DNA of 50,574 nt from Porticoccaceae bacterium (GTDB taxonomy: Bacteria; Pseudomonadota; Gammaproteobacteria; Pseudomonadales; Porticoccaceae): positions 1 through 50,574 of the forward strand of contig JABJEX010000053.1 of assembly GCA_018663035.1 (NCBI GenBank), read 5' to 3'. The notes beneath the pieces are model-generated. The model saw only the letters and a program-made list of their open reading frames with translations. It was not told the origin of the DNA and did no database searches. The translations under genes and the position numbers were made by a program. Shown here piece by piece: positions 44,415 through 50,527 of the stretch. Numbering within the stretch: the stretch's first letter is position 1; each line of letters opens with the position of its first letter.

Positions 44415-44518
44415 GGTGACTGGCGCTCTAAGTTAAACTTTGGAGCCCAAGGTTGCGTAAAGACAGAAGATCTTACTAGGCTCGACAATAAAAATTAATG
44501 GAAGGGGATGACAATAAA

Positions 44519-46468
44519 ATGAAACTACAAAAATTCGGTGCTGCGGCGCTGTTATCTGTGCTCCTCGGTTGCGGCGGGAGTGGTGGAGGCTCTACAGCAG
44601 TGCCGCCCGTTAACAATACTCCAGCACCTGAGCCAGACGCTGAAATTATCCAGCTAGAGTCCTCATTAGCTATTGGGCAGTCCACCGAGCTGGTACTGTT
44701 ATCTGACAACGATCTTTCAGGTATTAGCTGGCAACAGACTTCAGGTCCCGCTGTGACCTTTTATGCGTCAGACAGTAAGGTTATTGGTTTTACCCCCTCA
44801 CAGGCAGGTAACTACAGTTTCACTGTAGACTTTACTGTGGACAGCGCTCAGTCAGAAACCCTGAGCCATGATTTTATTGTCACTGATGATCAGGCTCAGC
44901 TAACAGTTCGCCTAGGGCATGTTGCTGTAGAGGGCATTCCTGTATCACTGGTCAGCTATGCCAGTGGCGATGATCAATCAACAGCCATAGACAAGAGCTC
45001 TTGGAAATGGACCCAAACACAGGGGCCAGCAGTTACCTTTACCGATACCTCTACGGATGGAGATGTCGCTGTCTTTTTTGATGCGCCCTCGATAAGTCAG
45101 GATACCCTGTTGGTCTTTGAGCTATCCGGCGATATCAACGGTCAGGCCCATGCCGATAGTGTCGCTGTGCTTGTGGAGAACAGCGCAGTTGAGGTTCCAG
45201 AGTCTGACGCACCCTTTACCGACCGCATCGCCGATGTCTTTCTCTACAATGCCGATTCCCCGGCAGGACAAAGACTGATCGACTGCGTGTATTCCAATAA
45301 TTCTAGATATGACGACTGTACCTTTGCGGACTCACCATTAATTGCTCAGATTAGCACCGCGCCGACCACCGATGACATTATGGATAGAGTGATAGTCTCC
45401 CATCGATGGATGGGTGATCAGTTCAAGAAATTCCTAGAAGACTACGATCCCAATGACGACTTTAAAAACCTACTGCGTGCTAATACGGCAGTAGTGATTT
45501 CTTATGATATACGCCCATCGTTTTACAGCCCTACCACCGCGGCTATCTACCTCGATCCCAGCGATCTTTGGGTAACGCCAGAGCAGCGTGACACCATCAA
45601 TCAGGCGCCTGATTACCGATCTAGTTTTGGTAATGAGCTACAGTTCGAAATGCCCTGGCGCTATGTTAAAGACAATGATTATGCCAGTTACTATGCACCT
45701 ATAAGGTATCGCCTCTCTCGCACTCTGGCAGACTCTCAGTACGACTTTGCCTCGCTGCTCTATCATGAGCTAGCGCATGCCAATGACTTTTTTCCTAGCA
45801 CTGACTGGCTGTCTCACAGCAACTCAAGAACCATCTATGATGCTGTGGTGGAGGTCTACAACGCGCAGGAAATCCAGTCTGACTTTCTGCAGGACAACTA
45901 TCCACTCGACAGCCTCTACGCCTCAGGCGGCCAAAACGAGCTGACCAAGTTGGCACAGGTCAGGTTTAGAAATCCAGATTTAATTACCGAGCAGCAAATT
46001 GCCTACAGCCCGCAGAACATTGCAGATATGTTCATGACCGAGGGAGCGCCGCAATTTTATAGTTACAGCTCTACCCGCGAAGACTTAGCGATTCTGTTTG
46101 ATGGTTTTATGATGCAGGCTCGCTATGGTGTAAGCCGAGATGTTGCGGTCAGTGACCAGGCCTATACGGATATTGTTTGGGGCCAGCGGGGCAGGCTGAG
46201 CGAAAGCTGGATTAAACCCAGGGTAGCATTTGTTGCCAGCAGAATTCTTCCAGAATTTACCGATTCCGCTACGGTAATTGAAGCTCTGGCTCCACCGATG
46301 GCTTTGGATGATTCTAAGACTTGGCGTAACAGTGTGGTTATCGATGCCTCTGGTAAAGGTTCTGTACCCGCAGGTGAGAAAGTCCGGGATCAGCGATTAA
46401 TCCCTGTAGACGGTGTTCACCGCCACCCTGTTCTAGATACTAGAGGCTCAGGCGTTAGTAGTCGCTAA
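44519..46468 (+). CDS. Putative lipoprotein with PKD-like repeats and a HELAH metalloprotease motif
   Basis: Not recognised as a named protein. From the ATG at 44519, preceded by AAGGGGA (an earlier ATG at 44498 lies before that site), it has 649 residues. A type II signal peptide with the lipobox LLGC cleaves before about C19, and a Gly/Ser/Pro linker follows. Two domains of the PKD/REJ-like kind come next, each opening with W-Q-(T)-(S/Q)GPAVTF, at about 70-135 and 160-230. The C-terminal half (about 240-649) has HELAH at H416-E417-H420 inside SLLYHELAHANDFF, with a possible third zinc ligand at E521 (STREDLAILFDGF). A secreted or surface zinc peptidase is a reasonable guess. Confidence 0.8.
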   Translation: MKLQKFGAAALLSVLLGCGGSGGGSTAVPPVNNTPAPEPDAEIIQLESSLAIGQSTELVLLSDNDLSGISWQQTSGPAVTFYASDSKVIGFTPSQAGNYSFTVDFTVDSAQSETLSHDFIVTDDQAQLTVRLGHVAVEGIPVSLVSYASGDDQSTAIDKSSWKWTQTQGPAVTFTDTSTDGDVAVFFDAPSISQDTLLVFELSGDINGQAHADSVAVLVENSAVEVPESDAPFTDRIADVFLYNADSPAGQRLIDCVYSNNSRYDDCTFADSPLIAQISTAPTTDDIMDRVIVSHRWMGDQFKKFLEDYDPNDDFKNLLRANTAVVISYDIRPSFYSPTTAAIYLDPSDLWVTPEQRDTINQAPDYRSSFGNELQFEMPWRYVKDNDYASYYAPIRYRLSRTLADSQYDFASLLYHELAHANDFFPSTDWLSHSNSRTIYDAVVEVYNAQEIQSDFLQDNYPLDSLYASGGQNELTKLAQVRFRNPDLITEQQIAYSPQNIADMFMTEGAPQFYSYSSTREDLAILFDGFMMQARYGVSRDVAVSDQAYTDIVWGQRGRLSESWIKPRVAFVASRILPEFTDSATVIEALAPPMALDDSKTWRNSVVIDASGKGSVPAGEKVRDQRLIPVDGVHRHPVLDTRGSGVSSR

Positions 46469-50116: not shown

Positions 50117-50527
50117 GTGGATAACGATAATTTTGGATTAGGGTATCCGCTACCGAACGATGTCGCCGTGCTGAAAGAAGCCTACATGGCGAGAATGGAG
50201 CGTGTCTCTGGGAAAAGAGGGTTTGTTGAAGTCATATCTGGCAAATCATTTTTACGGTCGACAAAAGATAACCCAAATGATGGAAATAGTTATACGAAGT
50301 GTGATCAGGTAATTTTTTGGCGAACAGAACTCGACAACGCAGATAAATCAATTTTTGATATAGATAGAATTACATGTGATCAAAGAGATACCCTGTTTAG
50401 ATTTGAAAATGGTCGATTTAGTACATCCACAATTGGGTCTTGGCACAGTGACCCACGGTCCATGCCAGATTACTATGGGGATTCATCCTCATTTAGTTTT
50501 GGTACATGTGAACTTTACTACGATTAA
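50117..50527 (+). CDS. Hypothetical protein, start uncertain
   Basis: Not recognised. From a GTG at 50117 it encodes 136 residues, hydrophilic and rich in D, S, F and N, with four cysteines absent but two present (about 62 and 85) plus a third near the C terminus. It begins near NDNFGLGYPLPNDVAVLKEAYMARMERVSGKRGFVEV and ends FGTCELYYD. There is no signal peptide or membrane helix. The frame is open back to 50030 and the AAGGAGG at 50081 lies inside it, 29 bases before the GTG, so the true 5-prime end may be upstream or lost. Base composition is visibly more A+T-rich than the rest of the window, a hint of transfer or of a decaying gene. Confidence 0.5.
   Translation: MDNDNFGLGYPLPNDVAVLKEAYMARMERVSGKRGFVEVISGKSFLRSTKDNPNDGNSYTKCDQVIFWRTELDNADKSIFDIDRITCDQRDTLFRFENGRFSTSTIGSWHSDPRSMPDYYGDSSSFSFGTCELYYD

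Follow-up and report, generated by a model that had tools for sequence, protein, structure and literature searches.

The locus at positions 44519-46468 of the window, as we call the whole 50,574-nucleotide stretch of DNA analysed, encodes a predicted lipoprotein of an uncultured marine SAR92-clade bacterium with an HExxH motif in its C-terminal half. Does this motif mark a metallopeptidase and, if so, one of which family? The protein is probably a lipid-anchored, mono-zinc gluzincin endopeptidase (MEROPS clan MA(E)) of an undescribed gammaproteobacterial family, with the M34 and M93 peptidases as its nearest folds.

A predicted lipoprotein with a PKD-like stalk

The gene lies on the forward strand, as do all of its features described below, and comprises 649 codons and a stop in an intact open frame. 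An in-frame ATG at 44498, seven codons further 5', is an alternative start that would yield a 656-residue protein. The first segment (44519-44578) encodes a signal peptide and the sequence LLGC-GG (residues 15-20). Its lipobox, LLGC at residues 15-18, marks the protein as a putative lipoprotein with Cys18 as the predicted lipidation site. From the glycine at +2, the protein is expected in the outer membrane, with neither membrane face implied.

Two PKD-like (K319L-like) modules follow at approximately residues 43-226 (44645-45196). The Pfam model PF22352 (K319L-like PKD) matches the protein in two stretches, with 35 bits against a cut-off of 27. The NCBIfam M36 models NF038111 and NF038112 align to residues 68-224 via their PKD tails only; M36 was rejected as a candidate family, its peptidase domain being unmatched and the score reaching 47 bits against a cut-off of 1500. 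We predict that the modules form a stalk. A preliminary description of the sequence had recognised both the lipobox and the pair of modules, and both are borne out.

The predicted catalytic core, with a gluzincin-like fold according to AlphaFold and VIA-align, spans residues 237-588 (45227-46282). C256 and C267 (45284-45319) are an invariant pair within this exported domain and probably form a disulfide.

The putative active site is invariant across the family

HELAH (residues 416-420; 45764-45778) is the sole HExxH motif of the protein, and any HExxH is present in just 0.4% of 20,000 shuffles of its sequence. H416, E417, H420, A421, N422, D423, Y514 and E521 are invariant in a family alignment of 76 rows. 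In a wider set of 144 correctly aligned rows of the catalytic type, H416, E417, H420, Y514 and E521 are the same in every row; the rows correspond to somewhat fewer distinct sequences because some genes were reached by two tools. C256, C267, W297, M298, L418 and D423 are likewise without exception in the same rows. One sequence, L078, is misaligned in the 144-row table through a partial match; its own sequence retains HELAHANDFF and REDYAMLF. The rows come from many families, and identity to the window core falls to about 26%. Since it is invariant across such a wide family, the HELAH motif is not a product of chance.

H416 and H420 are predicted to be zinc ligands and E417 the general base. 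E521 (46079-46081), the predicted third zinc ligand, follows H420 at a distance of exactly 101 residues, with 100 residues between them. Seven residues N-terminal of E521, Y514 (46058-46060) is predicted to be the transition-state-stabilising tyrosine. The distal glutamate at this spacing had been proposed beforehand, and its invariance, together with the retention of both histidines in the homologues, supports the proposal.

A single divergent paralogue (G047:C151) departs from this pattern. The entries L008 and L017 are this one gene of genome G047. Its motif is HEMAY, and positions 514 and 521 are occupied by Arg and Ala; H420, Y514 and E521 are thereby all replaced. Their joint loss is the expected outcome if the three residues share one active site, and is the best indication from sequence that such distant residues act together. 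A second copy in the same genome (L013, G047:C334) retains all active-site residues. L008 looks like a pseudo-enzyme, and the degenerate and intact paralogues of G047 provide a naturally occurring active-site control.

Predicted fold and structural neighbours

AlphaFold models of residues 237-649 (pLDDT 88.9, pTM 0.89) and 237-588 (pLDDT 90.5, pTM 0.91) agree with each other. HELAH is placed within one long helix (model residues 167-188, corresponding to 403-424), E521 opens a second helix (519-536), and the 100-residue gap between His and Glu is largely helical. The arrangement in the model is that of clan MA(E), an HExxH helix with a Glu on a following helix, all conserved. The motif had initially been assigned to a predicted helix; the model agrees, and gives this helix the zincin active-site role.

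In VIA-align, the top-ranked structures are catalytic domains of lethal factor, with Z up to 8.2 over 175 residues at 4.5 A, a best Z of 7-8 being usual for models that lack a clear match and a Z near 8 alone being no proof. The second neighbour is 4l7a (Bacteroides BACCAC_01431, M93), with a Z of 6.7 over 185 residues. For the full-length core, the values are 7.7 for lethal factor and 6.6 for 4l7a. M1 aminopeptidases reach 4.5 or less, and a weak neighbour at 4.4, 8s5f, is an alpha-ketoglutarate-dependent oxygenase domain.

Foldseek against the PDB returned no match with E < 1. Its best PDB match is 4l7a (E 1.3, probability 0.23), which is not significant, and no lethal factor chain is present in the list at E up to 10. 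In BFVD, the two best matches are phage proteins named lethal factor, at an E of only 0.2. Because Foldseek gives no E < 1 and Z values of 7-8 are usual, the tie to M34 and M93 rests on the fold and the active-site plan together. A gluzincin nearest in fold to the M34 and M93 peptidases is the likeliest reading of the modelled core.

Comparison with known peptidase families

The core has no above-threshold match in Pfam, NCBIfam or PDB sequences, whether searched singly or as a family profile. Matches of protein and profile queries to PDB sequences (antibody fragments, PevD1, tautomerases) were discarded as chance. A PHROGs search gave nothing for the family, and the literature searched holds no description of it. 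MtfA (M90), a reported relative of lethal factor, is absent among the matches listed. NleD-type M91 (PF14891) was rejected at 13 bits against a cut-off of 25; the match covers 19 residues at the HExxH helix (407-425) and leaves the rest of the core uncovered.

The entry 4l7a belongs to MEROPS family M93 of clan MA(E), and we take this protein, BACCAC_01431 of Bacteroides caccae, to be equivalent to Pfam PF15890 (Peptidase_Mx1). PF15890 has no match in the window protein, in eight core members or in the window's genome, with a Bacteroides control positive. BACCAC_01431 is likewise a putative zinc-peptidase of the bacterial envelope, but its chain is shorter (260 residues) and has no sequence match to the window protein.

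Pfam M34/ATLF matches neither the window protein at E up to 10 nor eight core members at E up to 5, and identity between M34 and the window protein is about 11%. The likeness lies in the active-site plan. Lethal factor has an HExxH motif, a Glu ligand further along the chain and, seven residues ahead of this Glu, a Tyr; the spacing of Y514 and E521 equals that of its Y728 and E735. Both of these residues are reported to be essential (PMC5668564, citing Tonello 2004). By residue numbers (690, 735), 44 residues separate the second His and the Glu of lethal factor, against 100 in the window family. Unlike M34, the window protein is a lipoprotein with a PKD stalk and has no toxin-delivery domain in its sequence. 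Svx of Pectobacterium is an exported gluzincin too, with HExxH and Glu ligands, but it follows the pattern HExxH-x22-E in an M60-like fold (PMC9266454), as opposed to the 100-residue gap here.

As the sequence tests for M34, M93 and M91 failed, we report the family as a member of none of them. Its mechanism class, gluzincin, is known; the family itself is undescribed in the libraries and literature searched. The preliminary description had found no known family for the C-terminal half. This stands at the level of sequence (Pfam, NCBIfam, PDB) but not fully at the level of fold, which is not wholly isolated and has M34 and M93 as its nearest neighbours. Its further suggestion of an undescribed metallopeptidase type is supported by the modelled HExxH helix and the conserved residues; neither of the two contrary outcomes it had named, a model without such a helix or homologues without the histidines, was obtained. 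The use it proposed, in degrading surface polymers or proteins, is hypothetical.

Distribution and architecture

Of 390 genomes of the window's order, 38 contain homologues, as do 7 of 369 drawn from its class and 16 of 398 from its phylum, all of them within the class. A search of named GTDB genomes gave 336 stretches coding for relatives; the 80 best come from SAR92, Colwellia, Thalassotalea and Shewanella. With denser sampling, the gene is present as a single copy in 93 of 117 Shewanella genomes, the genus being assigned from one of them (G1238), whose match coordinates coincide with those of S. corallii (L104). It is carried by 84 of 147 genomes of the family that includes Colwellia echini (f185) and by 6 of 50 in the window's own genus. 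The plasmids searched contain no relative. In six Shewanella genomes (G1135, G1152, G1163, G1187, G1218 and G1226) the copy appears to be split, truncated or interrupted by stops, which suggests ongoing loss or sequencing errors. The gene is dispensable, as some Shewanella lack it or carry a broken copy. At one locus (L147, G122:C16) two members stand in tandem, with active-site residues intact in both, and a third is found on another contig.

The conserved unit does not include the PKD-like modules. The core lies within about 110 residues of the lipobox in 19 of 136 rows, a number that includes L078, counted through its partial match. Other long members carry PKD, DUF4214 with PKD, or unrecognised N-terminal parts. 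A simple pattern finds the lipobox in 112 of the 136 rows, and the remainder include truncated contigs, stop-to-stop frames and sequences missed by the pattern. Weak matches in other genomes that share only the N-terminal PKD part (L009-L012 and L002) were excluded as having no homologous core. Three of these (L009, L010 and L011), from other species of the window's genus, are PKD proteins of ~735 residues with an unrelated HEWGH region and no Pfam peptidase match; they may represent another unassigned zincin on a stalk of this kind.

This architecture raises the possibility of a surface protease that serves nutrient acquisition or the processing of the cell's own surface proteins, by analogy with Zmp1 or the Bacteroides zinc-peptidase lipoproteins. 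We give this role tentative credence, somewhat short of an even chance. It would account for the lipobox and PKD stalk, and the patchy occurrence in the window's genus fits an accessory trait. The fold neighbours point the same way, with a precedent in the lethal-factor-like Zmp1 of Clostridioides difficile, which is secreted and acts outside the cell (PMC3841139). The near-universal single copy at a fixed Shewanella locus, however, is more like housekeeping than foraging, the short members have no stalk, and surface exposure is only putative.

Genomic context and origin

In 68 of 80 loci, bepA (M48), an arsC-like gene and DUF2069 precede the gene and share its strand. Downstream there are usually hda and a DUF2066-like gene on the other strand. 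The DUF2069 neighbour is confirmed by Pfam; those we take to be bepA, hda and DUF2066 were recognised from their sequences, with no profile test. The gap between DUF2069 and the gene has a median of 76 nt and is as short as 1 nt in some loci. The SAR92 copies have different neighbours. In the window, the gene lies downstream of those for a macAB-like exporter and a VTT-domain protein, and is followed by a sugar transporter gene on the opposite strand. A 136-residue open frame near the window edge (50117-50527, forward strand) has no Pfam match. Promoter and terminator scans gave results near chance level.

In a midpoint-rooted tree, with SH-aLRT as the only measure of support, the SAR92 copies join three Thalassotalea sequences (support 100) inside a Colwelliaceae group (99). 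This nesting suggests that the gene was transferred into SAR92. A sequence from a contig titled Rhodobacteraceae (L045, NZVE01000009.1) groups firmly within the SAR92 copies and is probably mislabelled or from a mixed bin.

The conserved locus also allows for an envelope-housekeeping protease, a partner of BepA in outer-membrane protein quality control whose SAR92 gene came from a Colwellia-type donor. The recurrent neighbours and short gap, the single copy in Shewanella and the position of the window sequence with Thalassotalea inside the Colwelliaceae group are all in keeping with this role, which we nevertheless consider unlikely. The order bepA-arsC-hda-purMN is an old gammaproteobacterial one, so the bepA neighbourhood is weak as evidence of joint function. 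The SAR92 copies, moreover, are located elsewhere, and the gene is dispensable in Shewanella. The synteny with bepA, arsC, DUF2069 and hda in Colwellia and Shewanella only weakly suggests an envelope role. The evidence fits both housekeeping, by the fixed locus and single copy, and surface processing or foraging, by the stalk and the patchy occurrence in SAR92.

It is improbable that the core is a non-peptidase HExxH-fold protein, oxygenase-like or a pseudo-enzyme with a binding function: HExxH folds are not always proteases, as 8s5f illustrates, and the motif has clearly been lost in L008, but E417, a residue that metal binding alone would not require, does not vary in any catalytic-type row, nor do Y514 and E521, and the scores of lethal factor and M93 are far higher than that of 8s5f.

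A putative envelope endopeptidase and its family

The gene and its domains, the five invariant residues, the core fold and the breadth of the family are established and suggest how a gluzincin endopeptidase may operate here, with zinc, peptidase activity, location and substrate as the predicted elements. Once exported, the protein would be anchored in the outer membrane via Cys18 through the action of signal peptidase II and the Lol system, a location that would follow from lipoprotein sorting rules. The two PKD-like modules would hold the catalytic core off the membrane. Zinc would be bound by two HELAH-helix residues, H416 and H420, and by E521 of the second helix, while E417 would activate the water and Y514 would stabilise the transition state. 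A protein of the envelope, or an extracellular one nearby, is the probable substrate.

On balance, we favour a new MEROPS-level family of M34/M93-like, lipid-anchored envelope proteases, first noticed in the window protein, with a single-copy gene kept at the bepA-hda locus by the majority of Shewanella and by numerous relatives of Colwellia and transferred into SAR92, in which family the 100-residue insertion between the metal-binding helices would shape substrate choice. Its members occur in hundreds of bacteria from marine and aquatic habitats, most of the Shewanella tested among them. Naming it would allow its recognition by annotation pipelines and offer a ready way of testing its function, and the lethal-factor-like gluzincin branch would be extended to marine lipoproteins of an ordinary, non-toxin kind. 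In hundreds of species, including Shewanella amenable to laboratory work, an envelope metallopeptidase that lacks annotation appears to be encoded at a constant position of the chromosome.
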